Shown in pieces: positions 42,239 through 52,060 of a DNA stretch of 64,000 nucleotides. This DNA is from a bacterium (GTDB lineage: Bacteria; Myxococcota; UBA727; JAUIJE01). How positions within the stretch are numbered: the stretch's first letter is position 1; every line of letters starts with the position of its first letter. A program made the translations under genes and the position numbers. Under the pieces are notes generated by a model that did not search any database, was not told the origin of the DNA, and saw nothing but the letters and a program-made list of their open reading frames with translations. The DNA lies in assembly GCA_030431455.1 (NCBI GenBank), contig JAUIJE010000017.1, positions 62,001 to 126,000 on the forward strand. Reading direction: 5' to 3'.

Positions 42239-45187
<2,949 letters not shown>

Positions 45188-46046: not shown

Positions 46047-46409
46047 ATGTCGGTTCAGCTGCAGGCAGGCAAGCCCGTCGATCAAAAAACGCCGAATGAC
46101 GTGTTCGTCGATGCCCTCCCCAAGGTCTTTGAAATCCAAAAGGGCCCGGCATCCAAGATCACGGCCACCTTTCTTGTCACCATCTTCGGTGACGGCGGTG
46201 GCGCGTACTTCGTGGACCCGAAAAACGGGGTTTCGCGGACGCGTGCGGACGGCGACGCGGCGGATTGTGTGCTGGAAATGGGCATCGCCGAGTTCAACGC
46301 GATGACCAAAGGCACCCTCGACGCGGCCAAAGCGGTCAAGGAAGGCACGATGCGCTTTTCCGGTGACCCTGACCAACTCGTTTCCCTGGGCGCTTTGCTC
46401 GGGGGCTGA
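46047..46409 (+). CDS. SCP2 sterol-carrier-type lipid-binding protein
   Basis: 120 residues with an excellent AAGAAGGAG site. The SCP2 fold is seen in the DVFVDALPKVF start, the beta segments (ITATFLVTIFGDGGGAYFVD, split), AADCVLEMGIAEF and the C-terminal KAVKEGTMRFSGDPDQLVSLG helix. SCP2 domains bind sterols, fatty acyl-CoA or other lipids in a hydrophobic tunnel. No signal peptide, so cytoplasmic. It lies 56 bp upstream of the first Ala-rich gene and probably shares its promoter. Confidence 0.85.
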   Translation: MSVQLQAGKPVDQKTPNDVFVDALPKVFEIQKGPASKITATFLVTIFGDGGGAYFVDPKNGVSRTRADGDAADCVLEMGIAEFNAMTKGTLDAAKAVKEGTMRFSGDPDQLVSLGALLGG

Positions 46410-46465
46410 ACTTCAAAACCACCTTTCGGCCACGTCGTGGGCCCGGACGGGAAAGAGAGAGAGAC

Positions 46466-47251
46466 ATGAGCAACAAGATCAGTGGACGTCAGCAGACCAT
46501 TCGGAACCTCCGCGAGGGGATGGACAGCGGGAAGCAAATCCAGGACGCCAAAGACGACATCAAAGTCGCCGGCGACGCCGTGGAAGTGGCTGGCGAAATG
46601 GCCGCCGATGCCGCCGCTGATCTCGCCGGGGCCGCGGTGAACGTGGGCCGCTCCGGTTTCCAAGCGGGCAAAGGCGCGGCCGAAGCCGCGGGCGGCGTGG
46701 GCGCGGCCATCGCGGGCGGCGCGGCGAAAATCGCCGAAGTCGTGGGCGACGCGGTCGGCTTTGTGCTCCAAGGCCTCGGCCGGGCGTTCATCGGCGCGGG
46801 CAACGCGACCCGCGACCTCGCCGACATCGGCGGGCGCCAGTTCACCACCGAGACCATCCAAGGCGACAAGTTCGCCGAGATGTGGTCCGACGTGATGATG
46901 AACGCCTCCGCGGAAGCTTTCCAAGCCTCCGGTGAGTCGCTCCTCAAGTCGCTCCAATACGCGGGCGGCGCCGCTGCCAACGTCGGCGCGGCCACCCTCG
47001 AGACCGCCGTGGCCGCCGCTGCGCTGGTCGTGGCCGCCGAGAAGACCCTCGAAGCCGCGGGCAACCTCGGCCACGCCGGTGCCATCGAAGCCGCCAAAGG
47101 CGCGCTCGTGGCCGCCGAAGCCGCCGTCCGCGCCGCGGACGAAGGCGTCGACATCGCCGGTGCGAGCCTGCAGCAAGCGGGCAAGGCGCTCGTCGCCGCC
47201 GGCAACGCGGTCAACACCGCGCGCGGCGACGACACCGCCGTCCGTGGCTGA
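46466..47251 (+). CDS. Alanine-rich helical protein, copy A
   Basis: 261 residues, more than a third Ala, almost no aromatic or Cys residues, predicted to be long amphipathic helices (VAGDAVEVAGEMAADAAADL; AAVAAAALVVAAEKTLEAAG). No signal peptide. A middle segment QGLGRAFIGAGNATRDLADIG and the end AAGNAVNTARGDDTAVR are shared with the next gene, so the two are paralogues. Composition recalls phasins and LEA-like proteins that coat lipid or polymer surfaces, but no family is recognised. AGAGAGAGAC precedes ATG 46466. Followed by a terminator at 47273. Confidence 0.65.
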   Translation: MSNKISGRQQTIRNLREGMDSGKQIQDAKDDIKVAGDAVEVAGEMAADAAADLAGAAVNVGRSGFQAGKGAAEAAGGVGAAIAGGAAKIAEVVGDAVGFVLQGLGRAFIGAGNATRDLADIGGRQFTTETIQGDKFAEMWSDVMMNASAEAFQASGESLLKSLQYAGGAAANVGAATLETAVAAAALVVAAEKTLEAAGNLGHAGAIEAAKGALVAAEAAVRAADEGVDIAGASLQQAGKALVAAGNAVNTARGDDTAVRG

Positions 47252-47272
47252 GCCCCGCGCTCAACCATGACC

Positions 47273-47303
47273 AAAAGTGGCGCCTCCTGGAGGCGCCACT
47301 TTT
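47273..47303 (+). terminator. 31-nt near-perfect palindromic terminator between the Ala-rich paralogues
   Basis: AAAAGTGGCGCCTCC and GGAGGCGCCACTTTT flank a single T. The stem ends in T4 and is flanked by A4, so it terminates in either direction. It separates copy A from copy B, implying that copy B has its own promoter or is expressed by read-through. Confidence 0.85.
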
Positions 47304-47357
47304 GAATGTGCCCCGGCCGGCGCCACCGGCGCCAGGTCTGTCGATGCAGGAGACGCG

Positions 47358-48110
47358 ATGAAGGTCGGACCCAAACAAAGCGGACGCAGCCGCGCGCTCG
47401 AGCAGACCGCGGACAAACTCGCGGACAAAGCAACCGCCCAGCTCGACGAAGCCAAGGCCCATGGCGGCCAAGCCGCCGGGCATGCCCAGCAGGCCGGGCG
47501 CGACATCTCCTCGGCGGCGCAAAAGGCTCTCGACGCGGTCGAGAACGCGGCCGCCTCGGTGGCCAACGCGGTGAGCGGCTCGGCCGTGGCCGTGGCCGGT
47601 GGCGCCGTCGCCATCGCCGAACAGGTGGGCAACGCGGTGGGCGCGGCCCTGCAACACACCGGCCGCGCGTTCATCGCGGTGGGCAACTTCTTCCGCAAAG
47701 TCGGCGGCGGCGCGCAGGTCACGACCCGCACCGTCGAGGGCAAGGACGACGGCCCTTCCCTGTCGCAGCAGCTGTTCCAGCGCTCGCAGGAGAAGTTCCA
47801 GCTCGCGGCCCAGCAGCTCGACCACGCGGTGAACGATTTGGTGGCGAGCGGCGGCGACGTCGGCGCGGCCAGCAAGAACCTCCTGCACGCCGCCCAAGAG
47901 AGCCTGGCCGCGGCCAAGGACCTCGGGGACGCGGCCGTGATCGAAGCCGCCGAGACCGCGGTGGTCGCGGCCCAAGCCGCGGTCGAGGTGCTCGAGACCG
48001 GCGCGGACGGCGCCGGCGCGGCGCTGCAGACCGCGGGCCGGGCATTGGTGAGCAGCGGCAACGCGATCAACACCGCGCGCGGTGACGACACCGCCGTGCG
48101 GAGCGAGTAG
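47358..48110 (+). CDS. Alanine-rich helical protein, copy B
   Basis: 250 residues from ATG 47358, with AGGAG upstream. Same architecture as copy A: charged N-terminal helix (KQSGRSRALEQTADKLADK), Ala-rich amphipathic helices, the shared central TGRAFIAVGNFFRK segment, a polar middle (VEGKDDGPSLSQQLFQRSQ) and the shared C-terminal SGNAINTARGDDTAVR. The conserved end in otherwise drifting sequence suggests a docking or targeting tag. Function not known. Confidence 0.65.
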   Translation: MKVGPKQSGRSRALEQTADKLADKATAQLDEAKAHGGQAAGHAQQAGRDISSAAQKALDAVENAAASVANAVSGSAVAVAGGAVAIAEQVGNAVGAALQHTGRAFIAVGNFFRKVGGGAQVTTRTVEGKDDGPSLSQQLFQRSQEKFQLAAQQLDHAVNDLVASGGDVGAASKNLLHAAQESLAAAKDLGDAAVIEAAETAVVAAQAAVEVLETGADGAGAALQTAGRALVSSGNAINTARGDDTAVRSE

Positions 48111-48152: not shown

Positions 48153-48175
48153 GGCGGCCTTTTGGCCGCCTTTTT
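48153..48175 (+). terminator. Intrinsic terminator after copy B
   Basis: GGCGGCC-TTTT-GGCCGCC followed by T5, 42 bp after the stop of the Ala-rich copy B gene. Confidence 0.9.
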
Positions 48176-48208: not shown

Positions 48209-48745
48209 CTACTCCAGGTAGGAGTCGGCCATGGCCTTGACCCGGTCGTACAAAGAGCCCGCGGTCATCCACTGAAACAGGCAGCGACCGAACGCGATGC
48301 TGTCCCCGTCGACGAGGTCGATGCGGGCCCGGGCCGCGATGCGCTCGCCGCGCACCTTGGTCCCGTTGGCCGAGCCGGTGTCGACGACAAACCAGCGGGT
48401 GGTGATGTCGGGGTCGCGCGTGAAGTACGCGTGCAGCTTGCTCACCGTGCGGTGGGGGACCGAAATGTCATTGCTCTCGGCCCGGCCCAAGAAGATGCGG
48501 TCTTTGCCCGCGGCCCCGTCGGGTTTTTTCACCGCGATGACCCAATGCCGAATGCGCAGCTGGTCGCCGGGCGGCGGCTGGGGCCGGCTCTCCATGCTCT
48601 CGCCCGACGTGACCAGGGTCTGAAAGCGAAACTCTTCCTCGAGCACCTCGCGCCCAAACAAGAACGGATGACCAAAGCGATCACAGAACGTCGCTTTGGT
48701 CATCGAGCCCGCGATGGGGACGTAGTCCTTGGCCCGCTGGTGCAT
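48209..48745 (-). CDS. FHA-domain protein
   Basis: 178 residues from the second of two ATGs (48745). After a 75-residue N-terminal part, a forkhead-associated domain is clear: IFLGRAESNDISVPHRTVSKLHA (split by eye into GR, S, H/N-type contacts) and VVDTGSANGTKVRGERI. FHA domains bind phosphothreonine peptides. Three Hanks-type kinase genes occur in this window, so a partner is plausible. It follows accC by 36 bp on the same strand. Confidence 0.85.
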   Translation of the reverse strand: MHQRAKDYVPIAGSMTKATFCDRFGHPFLFGREVLEEEFRFQTLVTSGESMESRPQPPPGDQLRIRHWVIAVKKPDGAAGKDRIFLGRAESNDISVPHRTVSKLHAYFTRDPDITTRWFVVDTGSANGTKVRGERIAARARIDLVDGDSIAFGRCLFQWMTAGSLYDRVKAMADSYLE

Positions 48746-48781
48746 CATCGTGTGCAGAGTACCCCGCCCAACCCGCCGGGT

Positions 48782-50128
48782 TCAGCTCTTCTTGCCCAGC
48801 ACCTCGGCGAGGTAGGCGGTGGTGTAGGTGCCGCTGCCGAACGTCTCGTCGCCGAGAATCTCGTCGAACAGCGCGAGGTTGGTCGCGGTGCCCTCGAGGG
48901 TGGTGGCGGCCAGCGCGGCCCGGAGCCGGGCGATGGCCTCGTCGCGGTCCTTGCCGTGGGCGATGACCTTGGCGATGAGCGAATCGTAAAAGGGCGTGAT
49001 CGTGGCCGAGCCATCCACCGCCGCGTCGACGCGCACGCCCTCGCCGGTGGGCCACACGATGCGGGACAGTTCGCCCGGGCTGGGGAAGAACCGCTTCTCG
49101 GGGTCCTCCGCGCACACCCGCGCCTCGATGGCGTGCCCCTGGGGCTTTTTGCCCGCGAGGGCGGCGATGCTTTCCCCCGCCGCGACCTTGAACTGCCACT
49201 CGACCAAGTCGATGCCGAGGGTCATCTCGGTCACGGGGTGCTCGACCTGCAGGCGGGTGTTCATCTCGAGGAAATAGAAGTTCTGGTCGGCGTCGACGAT
49301 GAACTCCACGGTGCCGGCCCCGACGTAGCCCACCGCCTCGGCGACCTTGACCGCGGCCGCGCACATCGCCGCGCGGGTGTCGGCCGAGATGAACGGGCTC
49401 GGGGTCTCCTCGAGGACCTTTTGGTTGCGGCGCTGCACCGAACACTCGCGCTCGAACAAGTGCATCACGTGGCCGTGGGTGTCGCCCAGGACCTGAACCT
49501 CGACGTGGTGGGGCGCGACGATGGCCTTCTCGAGCAGCAGCTCGTTGGAGCCAAAAAACATCTCACCCTTTTTCTGGTTGTCCTCGAACGAGCTGCGCAG
49601 CTTCTTTTCTTTTTTGCACAAGGTCATGCCGATGCCGCCGCCCCCGGCCGACGCCTTGAGCATCACCGGGTATCCGATCTCCTCGGCGAGCTTGACCGCT
49701 TCCTCGACGTCACCGACCGCGCCTTCGCTGCCGGGCACCACCGGCACCCCCGCGGCCTTCACCGCTTGTTTGGCCTCGACCTTGGTGCCCATGACCTTCA
49801 TCGCCGCGGGGGGCGGCCCGATGAAGGTGATGCCGGCGCGTTCGCACGCGCTCACCAGCTCCTCGGACTCGGACAAAAACCCGTACCCAGGATGCAGGGC
49901 GTCCGCCCCGGTCTTTTCTGCCGCGGCGATGACCGCGGCGAGGTTGAGATAGGACTGCTTGGGGGGCGGGGGGCCGAGCAACACGGCCTCATCGGCCTCG
50001 GTCACAAACGGCATGTTCACATCGGCCTCGGAGTGCACCGCGACCACGCCGAGCCCCATTTTTTTTGCCGTGCGCCCGATGCGGCGGGCGATTTCTCCTC
50101 GATTGGCGACCAAGACCTTCTTGAACAT
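48782..50128 (-). CDS. accC: Biotin carboxylase subunit of acetyl/acyl-CoA carboxylase
   Basis: 448 residues, the usual AccC length, without a fused biotinyl domain. Motifs: VLVANRGEIARRIGRTAKK, HPGYGFLSE, ATP-grasp glycine loop KASAGGGGIGM, FERECSVQRRNQK and EMNTRLQVEHPVTE. It carboxylates biotin on a carrier protein using ATP and bicarbonate, for malonyl-CoA or propionyl-CoA carboxylation. The biotin carrier and carboxyltransferase genes are not adjacent, so the acyl-CoA specificity cannot be set. Start ATG 50128 has GGGAGGAGCC upstream. Confidence 0.88.
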   Translation of the reverse strand: MFKKVLVANRGEIARRIGRTAKKMGLGVVAVHSEADVNMPFVTEADEAVLLGPPPPKQSYLNLAAVIAAAEKTGADALHPGYGFLSESEELVSACERAGITFIGPPPAAMKVMGTKVEAKQAVKAAGVPVVPGSEGAVGDVEEAVKLAEEIGYPVMLKASAGGGGIGMTLCKKEKKLRSSFEDNQKKGEMFFGSNELLLEKAIVAPHHVEVQVLGDTHGHVMHLFERECSVQRRNQKVLEETPSPFISADTRAAMCAAAVKVAEAVGYVGAGTVEFIVDADQNFYFLEMNTRLQVEHPVTEMTLGIDLVEWQFKVAAGESIAALAGKKPQGHAIEARVCAEDPEKRFFPSPGELSRIVWPTGEGVRVDAAVDGSATITPFYDSLIAKVIAHGKDRDEAIARLRAALAATTLEGTATNLALFDEILGDETFGSGTYTTAYLAEVLGKKS

Positions 50129-50287
50129 GGCTCCTCCCTGCCCTCGCCTTGCCGCCTTGGCCGCGGTTCGCCAAGAGGGAAGTTTTCACCTCACATGGCG
50201 TTTTTCGATAGGATTCTGGCGTCCTGACTCGCGCCCTGGAGCCTCGCCATCGTCTCCGTCACCTCCGAGACCCAAGACGACCTGCCC

Positions 50288-52060
50288 ATGGGACTGACCG
50301 TGCTCGGTCGGTACGACATTTTGGGCAAGCTGACCCAAGGGGGCATGGCCGAGGTGTACCTCGCCCGGCAGCTGGGTCCGGCCAACTACCAAAAGCTCGT
50401 CGTGATCAAGCGGGTGCGGCCCCACCTCGCCACCGACAAGGACTTCGTGGCGATGTTCGTCAACGAGGCGCGGCTCGCGGCGTTGATCAACCACCCCAAC
50501 GTCGTGAGCATCTTCGACCTGGGGAACGAGGGCGACAACTGGTACCTGGCCATGGAGTACCTCGACGGGCGCGACATGCTCCAGATCGGCCGGGCCTGCC
50601 GCCAGCACAACAAGGCCGTGCCGTTCGACGTCACCGCGCGCATCGTCGCCGACGCCTGCGCCGGGCTCGACCACGCCCACCGGCTGTGCGGCAGCGACGG
50701 CAAACACCTGAATCTTGTGCACCGGGACATGTCCCCCGAGAACATCCTCATCACGTTCGACGGCTCGGTGAAGGTGCTCGACTTTGGCATCGCCAAGGCC
50801 CGCGACAACCAGCTGCGCACCCAGGCGGGCCAAATCAAAGGCAAGCTCGGCTACGTCGCCCCCGAGGCGATCAAGGGCGAGACCCTCGACGCGCGCGCGG
50901 ACATCTTCGCCATCGGGGCCACGCTCTACCTGTTCTTGTGCGGGCGGCCGGCGTTCTCGGGCAACAACCCCATGGAGGTGTTCGAAAAGTCGCTCCAGCC
51001 CCCCGTCCCCCCGAGCAAACTCAACCCCATGGTGCCCAAGGCCCTCGAGGCCATCTGCATGAAGTGCCTCGAACAGAACCCGCAAAAGCGGTTCAAGACC
51101 GCCGGGGATTTGCGCACCGCCCTCGAGAGCCACCTCGCCACCGCCCGGCGGCCCCTGGGCCCGCAACAGCTCGCGCACTTCATGCGCATCCTGTTCCCCG
51201 CCGACACCGACCCGGTGCGCAAGCGCACGGAACAACTGATCGAAAACGCCCCGCCCCCCGACGAGGCCGCCCTCGACGAGGACGCCGGCCCGGCCACCGC
51301 CGCGACCGAGGCGCTGGCCACCCAGCAGGCGCCGCCGTCGTCCGAACACGAGGCCACCGCCATCGTCACCGAGCAAGAGCTGCGCTCGGCCCGCGCCCCC
51401 GCCACCGTCGACCTCCCGTCGACGCCGCGCGCGGGCTACCACCTGCGGTCGGTCAGCCTGCCCGACCAGGTGCCGGAAGCGACGATGACCGAAGCCCGCG
51501 CGCCCCAGGCCGCGGCCCCGTTCGCCACGTCGGAAAGCGGGGGCGAGAGCTCGTCGGACTCCGAAAAAACCTTGGTGGGCCTGGCCCCCTCCCAGGTCGC
51601 CGACGACATCGACATCGACACCGACGAGGGCGCGTCCTCCGGGTCGATGACCGCGCTGCCCCCCTCGGGCTCGGGCTCCGAAGAGGCCGACCTCAACCCC
51701 GACGCGTTCCTCGGCGACCTCGGGGGCATGACCGCGGAGAGCGAAGCGCTCTTTTCCGACTCGGACGGGCCCGACCTGCCCCCGCCCCCCGTCGGGGACG
51801 ACCCGCCGTTCCCCCCGCTGGGGGACAACGATCTCGCCCCCCCCGCGGGGCCGCCCGGCCTGGTGCCGATGACCGACGCGAGCATTCCCCAGCCGACCTT
51901 TCCGGTGGCGGCCGAGCACGTGCCGGCGCCGTTTGGTCGTCGGGCGATGGCCTTCGGGGTGGGGCTGGTGGTCGGGACCGGCATCATCACCGGCGGGCTC
52001 TTTGCGATGGGGGACCTGATGCCCGCCATCGCCTACCTACGCAGTCTCATTGGGGCCTGA
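50288..52060 (+). CDS. Hanks-type Ser/Thr protein kinase with C-terminal TM helix
   Basis: 590 residues. All catalytic motifs are intact: GGMAEVYLA Gly loop, VVIKRV Lys, HRDMSPENI, DFGIAKA and YVAPEAI. The kinase domain spans about 8-290, followed by a long acidic Pro/Ala linker and one TM helix near the C-terminus (FGVGLVVGTGIITGGLFAM), leaving almost no periplasmic part. HRD-M-SPENI is typical of myxobacterial Pkn kinases. Divergent from accC. It should be active, unlike the degenerate kinase at 2835. ATG 50288 directly precedes the domain. Confidence 0.92.
   Translation: MGLTVLGRYDILGKLTQGGMAEVYLARQLGPANYQKLVVIKRVRPHLATDKDFVAMFVNEARLAALINHPNVVSIFDLGNEGDNWYLAMEYLDGRDMLQIGRACRQHNKAVPFDVTARIVADACAGLDHAHRLCGSDGKHLNLVHRDMSPENILITFDGSVKVLDFGIAKARDNQLRTQAGQIKGKLGYVAPEAIKGETLDARADIFAIGATLYLFLCGRPAFSGNNPMEVFEKSLQPPVPPSKLNPMVPKALEAICMKCLEQNPQKRFKTAGDLRTALESHLATARRPLGPQQLAHFMRILFPADTDPVRKRTEQLIENAPPPDEAALDEDAGPATAATEALATQQAPPSSEHEATAIVTEQELRSARAPATVDLPSTPRAGYHLRSVSLPDQVPEATMTEARAPQAAAPFATSESGGESSSDSEKTLVGLAPSQVADDIDIDTDEGASSGSMTALPPSGSGSEEADLNPDAFLGDLGGMTAESEALFSDSDGPDLPPPPVGDDPPFPPLGDNDLAPPAGPPGLVPMTDASIPQPTFPVAAEHVPAPFGRRAMAFGVGLVVGTGIITGGLFAMGDLMPAIAYLRSLIGA

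Follow-up and report, generated by a model that had tools for sequence, protein, structure and literature searches.

An SCP2-family gene conserved beside a distinct alanine-rich protein family in Myxococcota: a candidate lipid-handling module

SCP2 (sterol carrier protein 2 fold) proteins are common in bacteria and, to our knowledge, few of them have a known partner. MLDS/TadA and the perilipin-like proteins are lipid-droplet proteins that represent the amphipathic helical type of coat. As described in PMC9499169, the SCP2 protein of the UbiJ–UbiK pair acts in the ubiquinone metabolon together with a membrane partner that is helical and amphipathic, and phasins are described as small, highly helical, amphipathic and sequence-diverse (PMC5658603). 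Titles and the beginnings of abstracts on phasins, PHA granules, lipid droplets or bodies, SCP2 and myxobacteria yielded no description of an SCP2 protein paired with a helical protein. Here, we analysed a 64,000-nucleotide stretch of DNA (the window), in which an SCP2 gene precedes two genes encoding alanine-rich proteins, A and B (Table 1). The locus is moderately interesting in that the gene pair is conserved and its helical partner corresponds to no family model of Pfam or NCBIfam.

Table 1. Features of the SCP2 locus (positions counted from the first letter of the window)
Feature	Position	Strand	Description and basis
SCP2 gene	46047..46409	+	single-domain SCP2 protein, 120 aa; PF02036 match
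Gene of protein A	46466..47251	+	Ala-rich, predicted helical, 261 aa; central RAFIGAGN; NTARGDDTAVR near C-terminus; 49% identity to G025 protein; leave-one-out 123 bits
Hairpin between A and B	47272..47304	+	perfect 15-bp stem, loop 3; A/T ends like a terminator; z-score
Gene of protein B	47358..48110	+	Ala-rich, predicted helical, 250 aa; paralogue of A; BLASTP, leave-one-out profile
Terminator-like hairpin and TTTTT after B	48153..48170	+	7 G-C pairs; terminator scan

The original placement of an SCP2 gene ahead of two genes for alanine-rich proteins was borne out for all three genes. In Pfam, PF02036 matched the window's SCP2 protein with an E-value of 1.9e-7 (31.8 bits, above the gathering cut-off of 21.3) and extended to residue 118. 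All 11 SCP2 proteins linked to alanine-rich genes matched PF02036 at E <= 0.1, the best at 9.2e-17, and a profile built from them matched the structures 2nbm and 1qnd (E about 1e-12). SCP2 proteins of a generic kind are widespread: 175 of the 195 phylum genomes searched gave a hit at E <= 1e-9. The 11 linked genes ranked top when the phylum was searched with their own profile, a ranking that is partly circular because the same genes built it. Under a leave-one-out profile the window protein scored 84 bits and was not separated from a background that reached 113 bits, with the best score in genome G046. It is therefore an ordinary SCP2-family member, for which lipid binding and fold are predicted from the family match, and its distinctive point is the linkage to the alanine-rich family.

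This linkage, also anticipated for the window, is conserved across the carrier genomes, which are scattered among the relatives of this bacterium. In 11/11 carriers an alanine-rich gene is immediately preceded by an SCP2 gene on the same strand, across a gap of 2–138 bp. Two of the 17 alanine-rich genes, the second copies in G025 and G178, are orphans for which the surrounding DNA that was read held no SCP2 gene, and the second copy in G008 is divergent. An all-against-all comparison of 13 contexts found no other neighbour recurring with the module, which suggests a stand-alone unit of SCP2 and a helical protein. The window's upstream flank (42239–45187) encodes a class II (B12-dependent) ribonucleotide reductase with a TSCPD domain, and the downstream flank (48209–52060) an FHA-domain protein, a biotin carboxylase and a Ser/Thr kinase; these genes look unrelated to lipid coats. 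With SCP2 as bait, the two best matches outside the 11 carriers were in G046 and G188. The G046 gene (L070, 134–643, minus strand) scores 113 bits, close to the subfamily, and its contig stops about 130 bases beyond it, so that an alanine-rich partner may have been cut off. No alanine-rich neighbour was found at the G188 locus or at the further SCP2 loci examined (L072–L088).

Some further features of these genomes were observed. A Cys-rich repeat protein adjoins the SCP2 gene of L070. In G033, the DNA downstream of the alanine-rich gene encodes a second SCP2-like protein (L006:566–1030, minus strand), whose C-terminal tail is basic and rich in Ala, Lys, Pro and Arg. Also, several genomes of the window's order (e.g. 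G005, G007, G009, G011–G015) measure 0.3–1.8 Mb compared with 7.7 Mb for the window genome, which looks like strong genome reduction within the order.

The extent of the alanine-rich family was estimated by successive searches. Protein A alone matched seven of 97 genomes at E <= 0.01, its own included, and two of its matches (L008 and L010) were later dropped. A nine-sequence profile reached 13 of 195 phylum genomes at E <= 0.001 and a 16-sequence profile 12 of 195 at E <= 1e-5. Solid members number 17 genes in 11 of the 195 genomes (G000, G008, G020, G025, G032, G033, G039, G051, G066, G149 and G178). G078, whose match is an unrelated secreted-looking protein, and G144, whose match covers 68 positions of an 892-aa frame, were dropped from the carriers. 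For spread beyond the phylum, narrow scans of genome contigs gave no relative with protein A as the single query, and only three matches (G149, G008 and G032) with specific peptide patterns from the alignment. Plasmids and viral contigs likewise gave no relative by these pattern and one-query scans, a result that applies to the sets scanned and does not imply absence elsewhere.

Similarity among alanine-rich proteins of GC-rich genomes might be a low-complexity artefact, and the many candidates of the loose first look, together with the spurious or doubtful matches in G078 and G144, would be in keeping with this. Given the alanine content of 20–29%, leave-one-out profiles were therefore run as an artefact check. 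They covered 16 genes (the 17th, L041 of G178, was left out), and same-locus or window partners were removed as well, while the two G025 members stayed in each other's training sets. Scores of all 16 members lay at 123–303 bits, and those of reversed and shuffled copies were negative; with profiles holding neither window protein, A and B reached 123 and 141 bits, again with negative scores for the reversed and shuffled copies. Identity to a G025 homologue at the three codon positions was 0.68/0.72/0.46 and the sense frame scored best of six, so the coding strand and frame of the alanine-rich gene hold. These scores, the codon pattern and the independent SCP2 linkage in 11/11 genomes make an artefact scarcely credible.

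The alanine-rich proteins thus are, as judged from their sequences, a real and distinct family that no model in Pfam or NCBIfam covers. Against both libraries, the two window frames gave nothing above chance, in agreement with the original view that they belong to no recognised family, and scans of the 16 members matched no known helical, LEA or phasin family. Nor did any of the 16 members match the UbiK/BMFP family in Pfam, and the named lipid-droplet families in Pfam and NCBIfam were likewise without a match. The hits of a PDB profile search (best E 0.0086) were for the most part designed proteins or helical ones.

A and B had been thought to share only two short segments, a view refuted by 47% identity across 172 aa (BLASTP, E 4e-30) and by the leave-one-out scores. 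For B, a start at the ATG of position 47358 is the sensible choice, the open reading frame itself beginning at 47277. Two alanine-rich genes occur in 6/11 carriers. In the family tree, there is strong support for the G008 (100/100) and G025 (98/98) pairs as products of lineage-specific duplication. Window A and B group with the G025 pair (100/99); for most of the other deep branches support is low. Such lineage-specific duplication in G008 and G025 fits roles in oligomer formation or dosage.

The motif NTARGDDTAVR had been described as an exact C-terminal tag and a docking signal. It does occur in both A and B, but it is not terminal, with 1 and 2 residues coming after it. The coding pattern of its first ten residues has two hits in the genome, A and B only (control 0), and the sequence has drifted or been replaced in relatives. 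In the two closest relatives, both of G025, it reads NTERAADTGIA and NTLRGSDTAAA, and in the longer members its alignment columns hold NPDQGKVEVLV-like sequence that runs on into a further predicted helix. Similarly, the central RAFI-x-x-GN of A and B aligns with GFAxIAN-like sequence of the longer members. In a low-confidence model of a longer relative, the second predicted strand region shares alignment columns with the tag. Given the drift in G025 and this correspondence in the longer members, the tag is most simply read as a shortened terminus of the family domain, and its identity in A and B as a consequence of their paralogy. A docking tag was accordingly rejected as a demonstrated signal, the pattern being confined to the two window paralogues and giving way elsewhere to a longer C-terminus.

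Amphipathic character, which the original prediction attributed to A and B, extends to most of the family. The hydrophobicity spectrum peaks at 99–101 degrees in 15/16 members, a peak that no more than 1 of 300 shuffles attained; L034 is the sole exception (69 of 300 shuffles). Alanine makes up 26% of A and 24% of B, and across the family glycine accounts for 10–16%, Cys and Pro are nearly absent and net charge is low. The highest 19-residue hydropathy means range from 1.0 to 2.0, and the usual 1.6 mark is exceeded in alanine-rich stretches of P0002 (1.86), P0003 (1.67) and three others; a membrane-inserted segment appears unlikely. AlphaFold, given seven sequences only, returned a poor, all-helix model for A (mean pLDDT 40) and a low-confidence model with helices and strands (134–141 and 266–273) for a longer relative (mean pLDDT 47). 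Foldseek with the poor model gave no match at E <= 0.001. This composition, together with the low structural confidence, which could reflect conditional folding, would be in keeping with A and B as a soluble scaffold or a stress protein of LEA-like or chaperone-like type, with the SCP2 neighbour serving a metabolic pathway. The lack of any LEA, phasin or other helical family in the Pfam and NCBIfam scans speaks against this, as does the conserved SCP2 linkage, which points to a lipid-related partner, and we consider such a role improbable.

PHA granules were examined as a possible site of action, with A and B as a phasin-like coat and SCP2 feeding or binding acyl thioesters. The window genome encodes one PhaC-like protein (TIGR01836 E 1.7e-69, below the cut-off), phasins have the same small, helical, amphipathic and sequence-diverse character (PMC5658603), and the basic Ala/Lys/Pro-rich tail of the second SCP2-like protein of G033 recalls PhaF, a phasin whose tail has been described as histone-like. 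However, tests with PF07167 and TIGR01836 across 195 genomes showed no enrichment, and a PHA association of the module was rejected: PHA synthase (TIGR01836, E <= 1e-30) occurs in 5/11 carriers (G000, G025, G032, G149 and G178) compared with 82/184 other genomes (87/195 in total; p = 1.0). In all five, the PhaC genes lie on contigs other than that of the SCP2-linked module. None of the 16 members matched the phasin families PF05597, PF09361, PF09602 or PF09650 at E <= 1, a phasin-related NCBIfam domain was matched by B only (E 0.23), and comparison of the family profile with one PF09361 and one PF05597 protein from the carriers gave probabilities below 1%. A PF09361 phasin occurs in 1/11 carriers, and short or partial PF05597 matches in 11/11 at E <= 0.01 (seven above the cut-off), so phasin-like matches exist separately from the alanine-rich family. 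A phasin-like coat is thus distinctly unlikely as an account of A and B.

Neutral-lipid bodies offer a second surface, on which A and B would form an MLDS/TadA- or perilipin-type coat of triacylglycerol or wax-ester bodies. Amphipathic alanine-rich helices and a lipid-transfer protein would suit such a surface, and Myxococcus xanthus is described as making triacylglyceride lipid bodies (PMC4048283). Against this, WS/DGAT (PF03007) was found in 0/11 carriers, the window genome included, compared with 101/184 other genomes, a difference with p = 2e-4 at genome level, where relatedness is ignored, and p = 0.057 at genus level; an association of the module with WS/DGAT was therefore rejected, and we regard this coat as unlikely. 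Six of the 11 carriers (G008, G020, G033, G039, G051 and G066), draft genomes that are 86–100% complete, hold neither PhaC nor WS/DGAT. The granule or lipid-body coat of the original prediction is accordingly weakened as a general role, while a granule coat in some carriers is possible, as is a coat on a lipid surface other than a PHA granule or WS/DGAT-type body. More broadly, the SCP2 carrier and the alanine-rich amphipathic proteins might act as shuttle and dedicated scaffolds, often as two paralogues, of a previously undescribed lipid-surface system that organises a membrane domain or a lipid compartment of which neither PHA synthase nor WS/DGAT is the maker, a reading we hold only tentatively and rate as somewhat unlikely.

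Two hairpins may bear on the expression of B. Folding of positions 47240–47320 gave a z-score of -5.3, with 0/200 shuffles as stable. The perfect hairpin between A and B is absent from the consensus terminator scan list, probably because its T run sits within the stem. Control of read-through into B is a possible role for it, and B may be expressed by read-through from A or independently. The site after B comes from a terminator scan that yields a similar number of sites in shuffled sequence, and it is suggestive only.

Our preferred reading, to which we give slightly less than an even chance, is that SCP2 and the alanine-rich proteins constitute a stand-alone lipid-handling module, acting as a peripheral complex at a membrane or lipid surface, by analogy with UbiJ–UbiK. 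The alanine-rich proteins, as homo- or hetero-oligomers, would sit on a lipid surface, either a lipid body or the inner membrane, where an SCP2 protein recruited by them would take up or deliver a lipid such as an acyl chain or isoprenoid. The pair would work like SCP2-type UbiJ and amphipathic helical UbiK of Escherichia coli, but with an unrelated helical partner. What is observed is the linkage of the genes, from which we infer a complex of SCP2 with the alanine-rich proteins at the membrane. The conserved pairing with a dedicated amphipathic helical family provides a concrete and testable SCP2 partner, and the module may bring to light, in myxobacteria-like bacteria, a system of lipid transfer or of a lipid surface that falls outside the known phasin and WS/DGAT frameworks.

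Compared with known systems, the alanine-rich family shares with MLDS/TadA and perilipin-like proteins the idea of an amphipathic helical coat. Its periodicity of 99–101 degrees in 15/16 members compares with 98 degrees for the 11-residue repeats of the lipid-droplet type, a weak discriminator. Like phasins, its members are small, helical and amphipathic, often with paralogues, but they match none of the four Pfam phasin families, and PHA synthase was not found in 6/11 carriers. The window SCP2 protein clearly belongs by profile with single-domain SCP2 proteins (PF02036; 2nbm, 1qnd, 2qzt) and differs from them in its conserved neighbourhood with the alanine-rich family. UbiJ carries a C-terminal region past SCP2 and binds UbiK by a coiled coil, whereas the 120-aa window protein is without such a region, and no quinone genes were found among the flanking genes scanned. 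The likeness to UbiJ–UbiK lies in the combination of an SCP2-domain lipid carrier with an amphipathic helical partner, for which, as described in PMC9499169, a membrane interface has been proposed.
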